Shown: one piece after another, positions 3,859 through 15,517 of the stretch
Layout: every line of letters starts with the position of its first letter
How positions within the stretch are numbered: the stretch's first letter is position 1
IMG/VR virus record: IMGVR_UViG_3300010150_000112
Location: 1 to 27,978 of that record
Strand: one strand, 5' to 3'
Length of the DNA: 27,978 nucleotides
From: a virus
Notes under the pieces: model-generated
Databases searched by the model: none
What the model saw: only the letters and a program-made list of their open reading frames with translations
Told to the model about the DNA's origin: nothing
Made by a program: the position numbers and the translations under genes

Positions 3859-4051
3859 TATAGATGATATTGTCAAAGAATTACCAGAGTTATTAGTTAA
3901 ACACGCATATACAAAATTAAAATCAGGAGAAGAGCTAACCGCTTCAGAAATGAAGGTATGTTTAGAAGTCTGTAAAACTTATAGTACAGATAATCTTAAT
4001 AAAAAAACTGACAACATTTTAGATGACGTACCGTTTGATACAAATGGATAA
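3800..4051 (+). CDS. terS: Terminase small subunit
   Basis: An 83-residue protein immediately before the large terminase, where T7 has gp18 (89 residues). Such proteins recognise phage concatemers and regulate the packaging motor. The chain is acidic, with an N-terminal polar stretch and helices at about 21-70 (SIDDIVKELPELLVKHAYTK, LTASEMKVCLEVCKTY). The ATG at 3800 has AAAAGGAAGAC directly upstream. It overlaps the basic 40-residue gene at its start and the large subunit gene at its end (ATGGATAA). The call rests mainly on size, helical character and position. Confidence 0.8.
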   Translation: MQKDQTKEAPSKNTTDKVVSIDDIVKELPELLVKHAYTKLKSGEELTASEMKVCLEVCKTYSTDNLNKKTDNILDDVPFDTNG

Positions 4052-5684
4052 ACGAATTAAGAACTTTAAAAATTTTTTGTATTTATGTTGGAAACACTTA
4101 AATCTACCAGAACCAACACCTATACAATACGATATAGCAGACTATCTTCAGTCATCTGACAAGAGATTAGTTATAGAAGCCTTTAGAGGTGTAGGCAAAT
4201 CATGGATTACTTCAGCATTTGTCTGTCATCAATTACTTCTAAACCCACAACGTAACATATTAGTTGTATCTGCTTCTAAGAGTAGGGCTGATGATTTCAG
4301 TACATTTACACAAAGGTTAATAGGTGAGATGCCTTTATTGTCTCATTTAATACCTAGAGATAACCAAAGACATTCAAAAATTAGTTTTGATGTAGCACCT
4401 GCGTTAGCATCACATGCACCAAGTGTTAAGTCTATGGGTATCACAGGACAACTTACAGGTTCACGTGCAGATTTAATTATTGCTGATGACGTAGAGTCTG
4501 CTAATAACTCACAAACGCAACTTATGCGTGATAGACTTGGTGAGACAGTAAAAGAATTTGATGCAATCATAAAACCAGAAGTAGGACGTATTATATTTCT
4601 AGGTACACCACAAACAGAAATGTCATTATACAATGACCTAGAAGAAAGAGGTTTTAAAACTAGAATATGGACAGCACTATATCCTGATAAAAAACAAAGA
4701 ATTGGTTATGGTCATAAACTGGCTGAAATGATTGTAGACACAAAAGAATTAGAAGGTAAACCTACAGACCCTAAAAGGTTTGATGAGGTAGACCTTATGG
4801 AAAGACTTTCAAGTTACGGTAAAAGTGGATTCAACTTACAGTTTATGTTAGACACTACTATGTCTGACGCTAACAGATACCCTCTTAAATTAAATGATTT
4901 AATTGTAGCATCTGGTTGTTCTACATGGAAGGAAGCTCCTGCTAAAATACAGTGGGCTAGTTCTCCTGAACAAATAAAAGCTATAGACCCTGAGTTACCT
5001 AATGTGGGACTCAAAGGTGACTATTACGTAGCACCTATGAATATGTCTAAAGAATTTACACCATTTGAGGGCACTATCATGTCTATTGACCCTAGTGGTC
5101 GTGGAGAGGACAAAACAGCGTATGCGGTGCTTAAAATGCTTCATGGAGTGCTATATTTGACCTCTGTAGGTGCATTAGATGGTGGCTATGATGAAGATAC
5201 TCTGTATAGATTGTCTAATATAGCTAAGAAAAATGATGTAAACTATGTAGTTATTGAGAGTAACTTTGGTGACGGTATGGCAACACAGTTGTTAAAACCT
5301 ATAATGGCTAAAGTACACCCATGCGAAATAGAAGAAGTAAGACATAATATACAAAAAGAGAAGCGTATTATAGATACCTTAGAGCCAATTATGAATAGTC
5401 ATAGGCTTGTGGTAGATGATTTACTTATTAAAGAAGACTTTAAATTAGAACCTAACCATCAGTTGTTTAGACAGATGACTAGGTTGACTAGAGACAAGGG
5501 AGCTTTGAGACATGATGACCAAATTGATGCTGTGGCTATTGCCGCTAATGCTTGGGTTGAGCGTATGGACAGAGACCAAGTCTTATCATACAACCAACAT
5601 AAAGAAGAACTACTGGACAGAGACTTGGAGAAATTCATGGAAAACGCCATTGGAAGAGAACAACATAAGGATAGATTTATATAA
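4044..5684 (+). CDS. terL: Terminase large subunit (packaging ATPase/nuclease)
   Basis: The DNA-packaging motor, similar in size to T7 gp19. Numbered from the ATG at 4044 (546 residues), the ATPase has Walker A RGVGKS at 48-53 and Walker B LIIADD at 144-149. The RNase H-like nuclease domain begins at MSIDPSGRGEDKT (catalytic Asp about 349), with a second acidic site at VVIESNFGDG (Glu about 405) and a third at RHDDQIDAV (about 491-495). A further in-frame ATG at 4023 would add seven residues and a longer overlap with terS. I prefer 4044, which makes a short stop/start overlap and begins at the conserved-looking MDKRIKNF. The gene is intact. Confidence 0.95.
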   Translation: MDKRIKNFKNFLYLCWKHLNLPEPTPIQYDIADYLQSSDKRLVIEAFRGVGKSWITSAFVCHQLLLNPQRNILVVSASKSRADDFSTFTQRLIGEMPLLSHLIPRDNQRHSKISFDVAPALASHAPSVKSMGITGQLTGSRADLIIADDVESANNSQTQLMRDRLGETVKEFDAIIKPEVGRIIFLGTPQTEMSLYNDLEERGFKTRIWTALYPDKKQRIGYGHKLAEMIVDTKELEGKPTDPKRFDEVDLMERLSSYGKSGFNLQFMLDTTMSDANRYPLKLNDLIVASGCSTWKEAPAKIQWASSPEQIKAIDPELPNVGLKGDYYVAPMNMSKEFTPFEGTIMSIDPSGRGEDKTAYAVLKMLHGVLYLTSVGALDGGYDEDTLYRLSNIAKKNDVNYVVIESNFGDGMATQLLKPIMAKVHPCEIEEVRHNIQKEKRIIDTLEPIMNSHRLVVDDLLIKEDFKLEPNHQLFRQMTRLTRDKGALRHDDQIDAVAIAANAWVERMDRDQVLSYNQHKEELLDRDLEKFMENAIGREQHKDRFI

Positions 5685-5685
5685 C

Positions 5686-6129
5686 ATGGAAATTAAAGAC
5701 AACACACACATGATAGCTGTAGCAAAACGTATTAAGAAACACGAGGGTTTTAGAGTAAATGTTTATGATGACCATTTAGGAAATAAAACAGGTGGATATG
5801 GACATTTAATGTTACAAGGTGAAACTGAACCTGAAGGTGGATATACTAAGCAATATTGGGAAGGTGTGTTTGATAAAGATTTTAACACTGCTATAAATGG
5901 TGCTATAAGTCTTGTAGGTAAAGATGTACCACCTGAAGTAATGGGTGTAATGACAGAGATGGTGTTTCAATTAGGAACTACAGGTGTATCTAAGTTTTCA
6001 AAAACATTAGAACACATTAAAAACAAAGATTATCACAAAGCTAGTAAAGAAATGTTAGATAGTAAATGGGCAACTCAAACTAAAGAACGTGCTGTCTTTT
6101 TATCTAATATAATGTCAAATATTGAATAA
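5686..6129 (+). CDS. Endolysin, GH24 (T4-lysozyme-type) muramidase
   Basis: A 147-residue lysozyme that would cleave the glycan strands of peptidoglycan at lysis. The family's catalytic triad is present with T4 spacing: Glu20 in KKHEGFR, Asp29 in VYDDHLG and Thr35 in NKTGGYGH (T4: E11, D20, T26). There is no signal peptide, so it would need a holin. The ATG at 5686 lies one base after the terL stop. The reading frame extends upstream within terL, but that part is the terL sequence in another frame. It is the last gene before the genome-end region. A second lysozyme-family gene occurs at 13413-13838 but looks inactive, so this is probably the working lytic enzyme. Confidence 0.93.
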   Translation: MEIKDNTHMIAVAKRIKKHEGFRVNVYDDHLGNKTGGYGHLMLQGETEPEGGYTKQYWEGVFDKDFNTAINGAISLVGKDVPPEVMGVMTEMVFQLGTTGVSKFSKTLEHIKNKDYHKASKEMLDSKWATQTKERAVFLSNIMSNIE

Positions 6130-6436
6130 AAAAATTTGAATGGGTATATCGTATATGACTGGTGGGTGTTTCCCCATAGCCTACGCCAAAAACTGACTAA
6201 AAAAGACTTAAAAAGCGTGGATATATGCGGTTTTTTTCTGTATATAACGGATATATTGTCCGTTGCGGTGGGCTCGTGGTTTTCTTTTTGTATGTGTTAG
6301 AGCTTGTCTGTTTTTTTGGTTTGGTGGTTCAGTTAGTAAAGTTCCCATATAAGATAAGATAAGAGGTCAACAGTATATATACAGGTTACCTACTCACTAC
6401 ATACACCAACACACTAACAAGATAAGAAGACAAGAC
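6130..6436 (+). other. Gene-free region, probable genome end
   Basis: No convincing gene is seen in these 307 bases. The region follows the packaging genes and endolysin and precedes the early genes, which is where T7-like genomes are cut and carry their direct terminal repeat, so the physical ends probably lie here or in the next gap. Contents: weak hairpins (TGGG/CCCA around 6158-6173 and GCGT/ATGC before the T-run at 6231-6237), which may act as a terminator; an imperfect dyad AACGGA/TCCGTT around 6246-6264; and a putative phage promoter at 6338. The ends cannot be set from a single copy of the sequence. Confidence 0.45.
6338..6357 (+). promoter_or_regulatory. Putative phage RNA polymerase promoter P1
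   Basis: AAAGTTCCCATATAAGATAA is one of five copies of a motif, roughly AAAGTWCCC-N-TANTAGAYA, that occurs only at gene-block boundaries in this window. This copy is followed by repeated AAGATAAG and lies in the probable genome-end region, where T7 has its end promoters phiOL and phiOR used as replication origins. It has one mismatch to the consensus. The orientation is inferred from the other copies. Confidence 0.5.
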
Positions 6437-6523
6437 ATGAATAAGTTTAAGATGTTTACTATAGCCGCTTTGGTTGGCTACTGGTTAACTCTAATAGGTT
6501 GCACCGCAATTAAATATTTATAA
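6437..6523 (+). CDS. 28-residue putative lipoprotein
   Basis: A tiny frame with the full architecture of a bacterial lipoprotein precursor: a positive N-terminus (MNKFKMF), a hydrophobic core (TIAALVGYWLT) and a lipobox LIGC with Cys22, leaving a mature lipopeptide of only seven residues (CTAIKYL). Thr at +2 predicts an outer-membrane location by the usual rule. It stands alone between the probable genome end and the early genes, about 80 bases after promoter P1. The Shine-Dalgarno sequence is poor (AGAAGAC). It is smaller than entericidin or colicin-lysis lipoproteins but of the same kind. A role in superinfection exclusion or lysis is speculative, and chance translation cannot be excluded. 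Confidence 0.45.
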   Translation: MNKFKMFTIAALVGYWLTLIGCTAIKYL

Positions 6524-6617
6524 TTAAATTTATAATATTAAGTAAGTATAACAATTCTAATTAAGGCAATTCTGCCATAATCTCAATAACTCACAATCTA
6601 CAATTTACACACTATAA

Positions 6618-6649
6618 GTTATGCAATTCACGCATAGCTGTTATGCAAT
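6618..6649 (+). repeat. Tandem direct repeat GTTATGCAAT
   Basis: Two perfect copies of the 10-mer GTTATGCAAT start at 6618 and 6640, 22 bases apart, or two helical turns, so a protein would meet both on the same DNA face. The first copy is also part of a short inverted element (ATGC...GCAT). Such spacing fits a repressor operator or integrase arm sites. The function is inferred only from the pattern. Confidence 0.45.
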
Positions 6650-13040: not shown

Positions 13041-13416
13041 TCAAGTAGGTCTAAAGTACGGATTTAGGTCAGGCTTAGAGATAGCAATATCAAAAGAGCT
13101 TGACTTAAATAAAGTTAAATACGAATTTGAAACAATTAAATTAAAATACACTGTCCCAGAAAAAGTACACACTTATACTCCTGATTTTTATTTAAAAGAA
13201 AAAGAATTTTTTATAGAGACTAAAGGCTTATTTACTTCAGCAGATAGAAAAAAGATGCGGTTCATAAAAGAACAACACCCTGAGTTAGACATAAGATTTA
13301 TCTTTAGCAACAGTAGACAAAAAATTAGTAAAAAAAGTAAAACAACATACGGAATGTGGTGTGAGAAATATGGTTTTAAATATTCTGACAAACATATTCC
13401 TAGAGAATGGTTATGA
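13009..13416 (+). CDS. Endonuclease I (Holliday junction resolvase, T7 gp3-like)
   Basis: A PD-(D/E)XK junction-resolving enzyme that in T7 degrades host DNA and resolves branched replication intermediates. Residues matching the T7 active site are visible: Glu in GFRSGLE, Asp in HTYTPDFYL, and Glu and Lys in FIETKGL. EQHPELDIRFIFSNSR and the YGMWCEKYG block also match T7 gp3 closely. From the ATG at 13009 it has 135 residues. An ATG at 12973 would add 12 more, but the conserved part begins after 13009. It overlaps the SSB gene by 32 bases and the next gene by four (ATGA). Confidence 0.92.
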   Translation: MKWHNRKLTSNQVGLKYGFRSGLEIAISKELDLNKVKYEFETIKLKYTVPEKVHTYTPDFYLKEKEFFIETKGLFTSADRKKMRFIKEQHPELDIRFIFSNSRQKISKKSKTTYGMWCEKYGFKYSDKHIPREWL

Positions 13417-13838
13417 GTAATTTGAGAACAGAAACAAAATATATAGTTATACACAGCAGTGAGTCTTCTCCAAAAGAAAACTTTGATGTGAATGACATAG
13501 ATACACAACACCGTAAAGACGGTCTATTTTCTTGTGCATTTCATAAAATAATTAAAAGAGATGGCACAGTGCAAGACGGTAGAGACATGCAAGTAGCAGG
13601 AGCTCATATCGCAGATGGTAATTTAAAACTATCTAATAAAAATTCTATCGGTATCTGCCTAGTAGGCGGAAGAACCATAGACAATCAACCTGATTGTAAC
13701 TTCACGTTCAAACAGTACACCGCTTTGGTTAAACTTATAAAAGAGTTGAAACAGAAGTACAAGGTTGATGTAGTAGGTCACAGAGATGTGGCTGACTCCG
13801 TATCTCCACACTTTGATGTATCAGAGTTGTTGAGATAG
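13413..13838 (+). CDS. T7-lysozyme (amidase) homologue with altered active site
   Basis: A 141-residue member of the N-acetylmuramoyl-L-alanine amidase family of T7 gp3.5, clear from IVIHSSE, HKIIKRDGTV, NSIGICLVGG and GHRDVA. T7 gp3.5 both cuts peptidoglycan and binds and inhibits T7 RNA polymerase. Of the T7 zinc ligands H17, H122 and C130, both His are kept (His14 and His123) but Cys is replaced by Ser131. The catalytic Tyr46 and Lys128 equivalents are Phe43 and Ser129. Amidase activity is therefore doubtful, while polymerase binding could remain. The start at 13413 makes the ATGA overlap; an ATG at 13407 is also in frame. His133 might replace the missing zinc ligand. Confidence 0.88.
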   Translation: MSNLRTETKYIVIHSSESSPKENFDVNDIDTQHRKDGLFSCAFHKIIKRDGTVQDGRDMQVAGAHIADGNLKLSNKNSIGICLVGGRTIDNQPDCNFTFKQYTALVKLIKELKQKYKVDVVGHRDVADSVSPHFDVSELLR

Positions 13839-13844
13839 TTTGTT

Positions 13845-13883
13845 AGGTGTAACAGAGAAGCGAGAGTAGATACTGTTACACCT
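13845..13883 (+). promoter_or_regulatory. Perfect 11-bp inverted repeat
   Basis: AGGTGTAACAG (13845-13855) and CTGTTACACCT (13873-13883) are exact complements across a 17-base loop. It lies between the amidase homologue and the primase-helicase. No T-run follows, so a classical terminator is unlikely. It could be an RNase III-type processing stem or an operator. The loop contains AGTAGATA, also found in promoters P2 and P5. Confidence 0.65.
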
Positions 13884-13918: not shown

Positions 13919-15517
13919 ATGCAAAATACAGAAAGTGAGTTTTTATATCATACGTCATGTGATAATTGCTCTTCTTCAGATGCAAATTCTGTTTACTCAG
14001 ACGGACATGCTTTCTGTTTTTCTTGCAACACAACAACCAAAGGAAACGATTTGAATAACCCAGTATCAACAGAAACCAGTAAAGAATTTATAGAAGGTAG
14101 TATTACGGAATTAACAAAACGTAAAATTAATTACAACACAGTTCAAAAATTCAATTACCAATCTGGTGCGTGGTTTGGCAGACCTTGTCAAATAGCAAAT
14201 TACTATAATAAAAATAGAGAATTAGTTGCACAAAAACTAAGATACCCTGACAAAACTTTTCAATGGTTAGGTGATTCAAGAGAAGCAGGTTTATTTGGTC
14301 AGCATTTATGGAGAGACAAGGCAAAAATGTTGATTGTCACAGAAGGCGAAATAGATGCAATGAGCATATCCGCTATTAATCAAAATAAATTTCCTGTTGT
14401 AAGTATTAAGTCAGGAGCTCAAGGAGCTAAGAGAGATATACAAAGAGAATTAGAATGGGTTGAAGGATTTGATTCTGTTTATTTTTGTTTTGACCAAGAC
14501 GAACAAGGTAAAAAAGGTGCAATAGAATGTGCAAAATTACTTACACCTAACAAAGCTAAGATATGTACGTTGCCTCTTAAAGATGCAAACGAAATGATAC
14601 TTGCAAACAAAGTAAAAGAATTAACTGATTGTATCTGGTCAAGTAAAGCATACAGACCTGATGGTATTATTTTAGGTGCTGACATTTGGAATGACATACA
14701 AACAGAAGACACGTATGTTACAGCACAATATCCATTTGAATGTTTAAATAATAAGACTCATGGATTACGTAAAGGTGAGCTTGTTACAGTTACAGCAGGT
14801 AGTGGAGTTGGTAAGTCTAGCTTTTGTAGACATGTTGCATTAAGTTTATTAGAACAAAAATATTCTGTAGGTTACATAGCATTAGAAGAGAGTGTTAAAA
14901 GAAGTGCACTTGGAATTATGGGTGTGCATTTAAAAAAGCCATTACATTTAACAAGAGAAGGAATAGATGAAAAACAATTACACACCACGTTTACCTCTAC
15001 TATTGGTAATGGTAATTTTTATTTATACAATCACTTCGGAGCAAGTGCCGCAGATAATTTACTTTCTAAAATAAGATACTTAGCAAAAGCATGTAATGTA
15101 GACTGGGTAATACTAGACCATTTACACATGGCTTTGTCTGCACTTGGAGATGAACATACAAATGATGAAAGAAAACTTATTGATTATTTTGTAAGTAAAT
15201 TAAGAACACTTGTAGAAGAGACAGGCATTGGATTAATTTTGGTTAGTCATTTACGTAGGTCAACAGAAGGTGACAAAGGTTTTGAAGATGGCAAACAAGT
15301 TACATTAAGTAGTCTTAGAGGAAGCCAGTCCATAGCTCAGCTATCTGACATGGTACTTTCCATGAGTCGTGACTTAAAAGCAGAAAACAATATTGCAAAA
15401 TTACAAATACTTAAAAATAGATTTTCTGGTGAGACAGGAAATGCTTGTAGTTTACATTATGATTTAGCAACAGGTTGTTTAGCAGAAGTTAAAACAGAGG
15501 TGTTAGATGACTTCTGA
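13919..15517 (+). CDS. Primase-helicase (T7 gp4-like)
   Basis: A 532-residue bifunctional replication protein. The N-terminal zinc-binding domain has Cys14, Cys17, Cys33 and Cys36 (CDNC...CFSC), as in full-length T7 gp4A. The TOPRIM primase fold shows VTEGEIDAMS (Glu142) and FDQDEQG (about 191-197). The hexameric helicase domain has Walker A GSGVGKS at 294-300, a Walker B-like stretch at about 397-403 (VDWVILDHLH) and an arginine-finger-like SLRGSQSIAQLSD. It should unwind DNA and make primers for the polymerase at 16008. The gene overlaps the next one by 11 bases. Confidence 0.96.
   Translation: MQNTESEFLYHTSCDNCSSSDANSVYSDGHAFCFSCNTTTKGNDLNNPVSTETSKEFIEGSITELTKRKINYNTVQKFNYQSGAWFGRPCQIANYYNKNRELVAQKLRYPDKTFQWLGDSREAGLFGQHLWRDKAKMLIVTEGEIDAMSISAINQNKFPVVSIKSGAQGAKRDIQRELEWVEGFDSVYFCFDQDEQGKKGAIECAKLLTPNKAKICTLPLKDANEMILANKVKELTDCIWSSKAYRPDGIILGADIWNDIQTEDTYVTAQYPFECLNNKTHGLRKGELVTVTAGSGVGKSSFCRHVALSLLEQKYSVGYIALEESVKRSALGIMGVHLKKPLHLTREGIDEKQLHTTFTSTIGNGNFYLYNHFGASAADNLLSKIRYLAKACNVDWVILDHLHMALSALGDEHTNDERKLIDYFVSKLRTLVEETGIGLILVSHLRRSTEGDKGFEDGKQVTLSSLRGSQSIAQLSDMVLSMSRDLKAENNIAKLQILKNRFSGETGNACSLHYDLATGCLAEVKTEVLDDF

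Follow-up and report, generated by a model that had tools for sequence, protein, structure and literature searches.

T7 lysozyme (gp3.5) is a textbook two-job protein that cuts the cell wall and restrains the RNA polymerase of the phage; pET expression hosts make use of it. A stretch of viral DNA of 27,978 nucleotides (IMG/VR record IMGVR_UViG_3300010150_000112; the whole stretch is called the window below) encodes a homologue of gp3.5 in which the amidase site looks broken. A sequence-only reading of the window proposed that cell-wall cutting had moved to a second enzyme and that the homologue had been kept as a pure polymerase regulator. The locus thus raises two questions: (i) is the protein still an amidase, and (ii) if it is not, what is it kept for?

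The window is, by its sequence, a pelagiphage genome (Autographiviridae, Pelagivirus; SAR11 phages), with its best DNA matches to HTVC031P, HTVC142P, and Eistla at ~78% identity. SAR11 is an abundant ocean bacterium, and its phages are among the most abundant ocean viruses. Compared with T7, the gene order is T7-like: RNA polymerase, ssDNA-binding protein, endonuclease I, gp3.5 homologue, and primase/helicase (Table 1). An alternative in-frame ATG at 13407 would make the gp3.5 homologue two residues longer.

Table 1. Features of the window and codons of the former amidase site
Feature	Position	Strand	Evidence or remark
Terminase large subunit / DNA maturase B (terL)	4023..5684	+	Marks the exchangeable cell-wall hydrolase slot
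GH24 muramidase (PF00959), presumed working lysis enzyme, adjoins terL 3' end	5686..6129	+	Pfam
Single-subunit phage RNA polymerase, 815 aa, presumed partner of gp3.5	9937..12384	+	
T7 gp2.5-type ssDNA-binding protein	12426..13040	+	
T7 gp3-type endonuclease I; stop overlaps gp3.5 start	12973..13416	+	
gp3.5-like pseudo-amidase, 141 aa	13413..13838	+	Amidase_2, PHROG, and PDB matches; T7 alignment; model
His14 codon (T7 His17, zinc ligand)	13452..13454	+	Invariant, 108/108 pelagivirus sequences
Phe43 codon (T7 catalytic Tyr46)	13539..13541	+	T7 alignment
His123 codon (T7 His122, zinc ligand)	13779..13781	+	His, Cys, or Tyr within the genus
Ser129 codon (T7 Lys128)	13797..13799	+	T7 alignment
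Ser131 codon TCT (T7 zinc ligand Cys130)	13803..13805	+	Ser, Ala, or Cys in the window's clade
His133 codon (T7 position 132)	13809..13811	+	Possible substitute zinc ligand, unlikely
Hairpin, 11-bp stem, immediately 3' of gp3.5	13845..13883	+	
Primase/helicase	13919..15517	+	

By descent the protein belongs to the T7 gp3.5 / Amidase_2 family. It matches Pfam Amidase_2 (PF01510; E 3.1e-15, above the cut-off), PHROG 822 amidase (E 5.6e-41), and, in the PDB, T7 lysozyme 1lba (E 7e-22). An AlphaFold2 model made with 41 aligned relatives (mean pLDDT 87.8) compares with 1lba at TM 0.91, and the fold is therefore predicted to be intact. At T7 positions 17/46/122/128/130, the alignment gives His-Phe-His-Ser-Ser for the window versus His-Tyr-His-Lys-Cys for T7. 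This bears out the earlier claim that the third zinc ligand, Cys130, is now Ser, that catalytic Lys128 and Tyr46 are replaced by Ser and Phe, and that two His ligands are left. Family, gene order, and fold are thus shared with T7 gp3.5 (PDB 1lba, 1aro) at ~39% identity, but the window's version has these three residues replaced, a shorter tail, and an additional endolysin gene in its genome.

The effect of such replacements can be judged from mutants of homologues. Y46F abolishes the amidase activity of T7 lysozyme; in Drosophila PGRP-LB, Y78F abolishes activity and C160S removes zinc, and peptidoglycan binding remains in both mutants (PMC8124813). The Ts2631 endolysin retains 10% of its activity with Y58F and 12% with C139S (PMC4573324). 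Polymerase inhibition is kept, or nearly kept, by T7 lysozyme Y46F and K128T (PMC4573324), and zinc is dispensable for it (PMC5445346), so the two roles of T7 gp3.5 are separable, as the sequence-only reading had assumed. By every residue comparison made, the amidase site of the window's protein is dead. Its enzymatic inactivity is well predicted from these mutants, which are also compatible with a surviving second (polymerase) function.

We gathered relatives of gp3.5 by several IMG/VR scans and from named phages, which yielded 222 usable distinct sequences. The site is degenerate in 108 of them, all from pelagiviruses, and not in the other 114. Every complete sequence outside the pelagivirus clade reads H-Y-H-K-C and none of the 108 inside it does, a split in site residues that is far beyond chance. 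A single bipartition divides degenerate from intact sequences exactly (support 0.96; all trees are FastTree trees). We rejected a private mutation or sequencing error, because identical states occur in many independent contigs and the pattern is genus-wide. The degenerate set comprises 13 residue combinations in two main clades. Clade B (70 sequences, including the window's) has Phe46, with Ser, Ala, or Val at 128 and Ser, Cys, or Ala at 130; clade A (38 sequences, HTVC019P type) has Cys122 and usually Phe46, with Lys128 and Cys130 mostly retained. Ser or Ala occupies the third zinc-ligand position, 130, in 49 of the 108 distinct sequences. Within the degenerate clade, parsimony requires at least 3 changes at position 122, 6 at 128, and 4 at 130 but none at His17, which together with the 13 combinations indicates repeated change at the first three positions. 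As to whether the Ser/Ser/Phe state is conserved in related phages, then, degeneracy of the site is fixed (108/108) but the particular residues vary. We note that the Cys and Ala codons (TGT, GCT) lie one step from the Ser codon TCT; judging by the codons, one clade-B subclade may have gone back from Ser to Cys130 (TCT to TGT).

The surroundings of the site have changed as well. We compared 19 positions without change in intact relatives. C18, T21, H36, G45, Y46, H122, K128, C130, and P131 are relaxed in the larger clade that contains the degenerate sequences, and H17, G54, G59, R60, N73, G83, G84, N94, Q99, and L103 are not; this larger clade also includes some marine sequences with intact sites, in which none of the 19 positions varies. 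None of the 108 degenerate sequences has Trp35, which hardly varies in intact relatives, and all 108 have a substitution at Gly45. H36 and P131, which lie near the site and are invariant or nearly so in intact relatives, are variable in the degenerate sequences. Across the degenerate clade there are also new invariant residues (K38, H47, N75, L106, and R123 in T7 numbering), some beside the old cleft, and these could mark a new surface.

The gene is nonetheless under purifying selection. For gp3.5, median dN/dS is 0.17 among clade A sequences and 0.13 among those of clade B, values close to those of the neighbour genes, and the open reading frame is intact in all collected pelagivirus copies. 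We found gp3.5 in 64/64 IMG/VR loci that were located via the RNA polymerase alone and had enough downstream sequence, and in 18/18 database records with a pelagivirus-type polymerase. We consider it very probable that the protein has lost its amidase activity and is kept for a function that needs no catalysis.

The second enzyme of the window, which the sequence-only reading took for an intact lysozyme, is a GH24 muramidase (PF00959, E 7.7e-11) whose triad is intact (Glu20, Asp29, Thr35) and has the T4-type E-9-D-6-T spacing. Among the 19 pelagivirus records that reach 37 kb or more, 17 encode a muramidase of GH24 or pesticin type, just 3' of terL where checked: GH24 over the Pfam cut-off in eight, a diverged GH24 recognized by direct comparison in three, and a pesticin-type lysozyme (PF16754) instead of GH24 in six. 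One of the other two (G007) has a different slot ORF with an endolysin-like PHROG match, and no cell-wall hydrolase was found in the other (G015). We rejected replacement by GH24 in every genome, since several records have the pesticin type in the same slot and no GH24. One record (G001) encodes a gp3.5 identical to the window's, yet it has the pesticin type and no GH24, which indicates that gp3.5 and the slot hydrolase are exchanged independently. Swaps among GH24, pesticin-type, and other hydrolases after terL are seen between close pelagiviruses (window; L233 15453-15980; L084 13288-13773; L242; L248). The terL frame of one of these (L248 7754-9211; G010) is in several pieces, probably through assembly or sequencing errors.

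The GH24 and pesticin-type phage lysozymes (PF00959, PF16754) are muramidases of another fold, outside the gp3.5 family; from family and position, the enzyme in this slot is likely to perform lysis in pelagiviruses, and the exchangeable gene after terL can be annotated as the likely lysis gene. We did not find GH24 in T7, HTVC041P, CRP-113, RHEph01, KT997847, or 20 IMG/VR records with intact gp3.5 (several of them fragments), and the pesticin type was likewise not found in the intact-site relatives searched. CRP-113, with an intact gp3.5, has another hydrolase (PF07486). The association of a dead gp3.5 with a muramidase essentially goes back to a single event in evolution and does not constitute statistical proof. 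The proposal that cell-wall cutting moved to a second enzyme is well supported by the dead, fixed site and the hydrolase gene after terL, whose role in lysis we infer. The main text of a transcriptome study of HTVC022P does not give the timing of the two lysozyme genes (PMC12753301).

The second question is what the protein is kept for. Because T7 Y46F and K128T keep inhibition and zinc is not needed, a polymerase role is the best single guess. It is also favored by the history of the family, by the location of gp3.5 three genes past the polymerase, and by a hairpin behind gp3.5 that is described below. In T7-like phages, the N-terminal tail of gp3.5 carries polymerase inhibition (PMC10138996); the window's tail is four residues shorter than that of T7, and the tail is short too in intact-site marine relatives. 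PMC5445346 lists the polymerase positions that contact T7 lysozyme. In T7-like phages these tend to be more conserved than average (mean entropy 0.33 vs 0.54 overall), whereas in pelagiviruses they are more variable (1.09 vs 0.70). Among them 307E, 724P, and 726H are invariant in pelagiviruses; the T7 720-721 loop is missing from the pelagivirus polymerase, as are most residues that contact lysozyme in T7. Conservation of T7-style contacts is hence unsupported. Residues 4-52 of gp3.5, the polymerase-binding part in T7, showed no special gain of constraint in the degenerate clade. A mirror-tree comparison of gp3.5 and polymerase gave a partial r of 0.50 in the window's clade, no signal in clade A, and a weak one in the T7 positive control; we discarded it as evidence because the positive control failed and the clade A signal was absent. 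The sequence-only reading therefore stands in part: the dead site is fixed and the gene is kept, but its pure polymerase regulator is plausible rather than established. The tail is shorter, the T7-type contacts vary, and sister phages without gp3.5 keep their polymerase. On this analysis, the chance that the RNA polymerase is the target of the retained function is roughly even.

As a separate observation on these polymerases, the gene is split into two ORFs in a marine group of autographiviruses with intact gp3.5, with the same break near T7 residue 300 in ~37 loci: L226 (HTVC041P) 4185-6804, L231 (KT997847) 6600-9222, and ~35 more from IMG/VR (e.g., L325-L345, L357, L375, and L383). In the two loci inspected (L226 and L231), the second ORF starts with an ATG behind a ribosome-binding site of its own. 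This would be a naturally split T7-type polymerase; sequencing error is an unlikely cause.

A related genus provides a comparison. Our Votkovvirus set comprised HTVC200P, HTVC119P, AP013540, and 17 IMG/VR loci, and in the tree its gp3.5 forms the sister group of the pelagivirus sequences (joint support 0.97). Like the window's, the Votkovvirus protein lies after endonuclease I, has no catalytic site, is under purifying selection (dN/dS 0.16), and is annotated as lysozyme or amidase; GH24 is present in four of the genomes, elsewhere than at the gp3.5 locus. Unlike the window's, it has ~110 residues and no conserved ATG. Asp or Ala stands in place of the first zinc ligand, and a deletion has removed the segment that would carry His122, Lys128, and Cys130; over its length the model compares with T7 lysozyme at TM 0.88. 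Tyr46 is retained in some Votkovvirus sequences, and so must have been lost more than once or regained. The annotated Met is mostly Thr, Val, or Ile (L461-L477, L409 7568-7897, L459, L460). The ORF and the 3' end of the endonuclease I gene overlap. Translation may begin at a TTG codon, or it may enter the frame from within the endonuclease gene by a +1 slip at CCTAAAAAAC.

Outside the genus, the closest phages by polymerase, HTVC120P and Bylgja, have no gp3.5 but a 109-bp gap, and keep the polymerase; gp3.5 was also not found in P-SSP7 and Syn5 in the regions read. The gene can therefore be lost, and the genera Pelagivirus and Votkovvirus retain it with its enzymatic part gone. A pesticin-type lysozyme domain starts a large protein in the sister phages without gp3.5 (L410 9990-11849; L408 27095-29176), encoded among the internal virion protein genes.

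The strongest alternative is that the dead amidase does a non-catalytic job on another partner, such as the replication or packaging machinery or a host protein, with the cleft or another face reused. The new invariant residues, some of them near the old cleft, the unpreserved T7-type contacts, and the persistence of the polymerase in the sister group without gp3.5 would all fit. No data in this analysis indicate such a partner, however, and the family's known second function is polymerase binding, with the gene lying three genes past the polymerase in annotated pelagiviruses. We regard this alternative as possible but rather unlikely.

A further alternative is that the protein binds peptidoglycan without cutting it, holding wall fragments in the manner of animal recognition PGRPs. 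PGRPs are among the structural neighbours of the gp3.5 model, and Ser in place of the zinc Cys also marks non-amidase PGRPs (PMC4573324). The PGRP-LB mutants described above still bind (PMC8124813), and T7 R60 (R57 in the window), the apparent match of the ligand-contacting PGRP-LB R92, is invariant. PGRP-SA, PGRP-LC, and PGRP-LE thus resemble the window's protein in fold class, Cys-to-Ser change, and loss of amidase, but these animal immune receptors keep the Tyr and the binding groove, whereas the phage protein has lost the Tyr and groove residues: W35 is lost and G45 replaced in 108/108, and H36, H122, and P131 vary. In Votkovvirus a whole wall of the site is missing. By eye, neither a signal peptide nor a membrane anchor was obvious in gp3.5. 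We know of no role for non-cutting peptidoglycan binding in the lytic cycle, and we judge this alternative improbable.

Activity could also persist if the third zinc ligand had shifted to His133, two residues past the lost Cys. His17 is invariant, and in clade B Ser or Ala at 130 goes with His132 in 47/48 distinct sequences and Cys130 with Gln132 in 22/22. On the tree, however, one or two events would account for this coupling, among codons one step from TCT; L262, in clade B, has neither Cys130 nor His132, and three clade-B sequences also have Tyr122. Moreover, Tyr46 to Phe alone kills the activity of T7 lysozyme and PGRP-LB (PMC8124813), and Lys128 is gone too. A working amidase of this kind is very improbable. 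Least credible of all is a decaying, functionless remnant, which the lost active site, one sister lineage without the gene, and another with a truncated gene might suggest but which is already contradicted by a dN/dS that stays at 0.13-0.17 across widely diverged sequences, by the presence of gp3.5 in 64/64 loci, and by frames that remain open in the collected pelagivirus copies.

We therefore return to the polymerase as partner, and favor, at slightly better than even chances, a fixed pseudo-amidase that has lost catalysis and is kept most likely to bind and restrain the phage's RNA polymerase. In the common ancestor of Pelagivirus and Votkovvirus, another hydrolase, encoded just after terL in Pelagivirus, would have taken over peptidoglycan cutting. 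The zinc/Tyr site of gp3.5 would then have decayed along several routes, with the fold retained for a non-enzymatic job. Most likely gp3.5 would bind its own polymerase and hold it back late in infection, which would time replication and packaging, and the contact surface would have diverged from that of T7. Taken more broadly, we give an even chance to the idea that this clade of SAR11 phages made T7 lysozyme over into a regulator without enzymatic activity, dedicated to the polymerase or to another partner, with a re-made interface and with Votkovvirus as the minimal version.

T7 gp3.5, the GH24 and pesticin-type lysozymes, and pseudo-enzymes as kinds are known; the dead site in pelagivirus gp3.5 is undescribed in the literature searched. 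Databases annotate these genes as lysozyme or amidase, a label that probably misdescribes their activity. Evolution has apparently removed one job of T7 lysozyme and kept the protein in very abundant ocean viruses. If true, this is a natural separation-of-function experiment on one of the best-known bifunctional phage proteins, and these phages make testable which parts the second job needs, whether it exists outside T7-like phages, and what effect it has.

Finally, a strong hairpin lies directly 3' of gp3.5 in every pelagivirus checked (the gaps before primase in the window, L082, L083, L228, and L229). Its sequence varies among pelagiviruses, and some copies have a T run and are terminator-like. 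The position right after gp3.5 suggests a single transcript from the polymerase through gp3.5, and the transcript of polymerase, ssDNA-binding protein, endonuclease I, and gp3.5 may end or be processed there. The gap between gp3.5 and primase in HTVC019P (L083 8867-9054) contains an apparent tRNA-like stretch on the minus strand, possibly a tRNA attachment site; integration of HTVC022P at tRNA-Cys is reported in PMC12753301.
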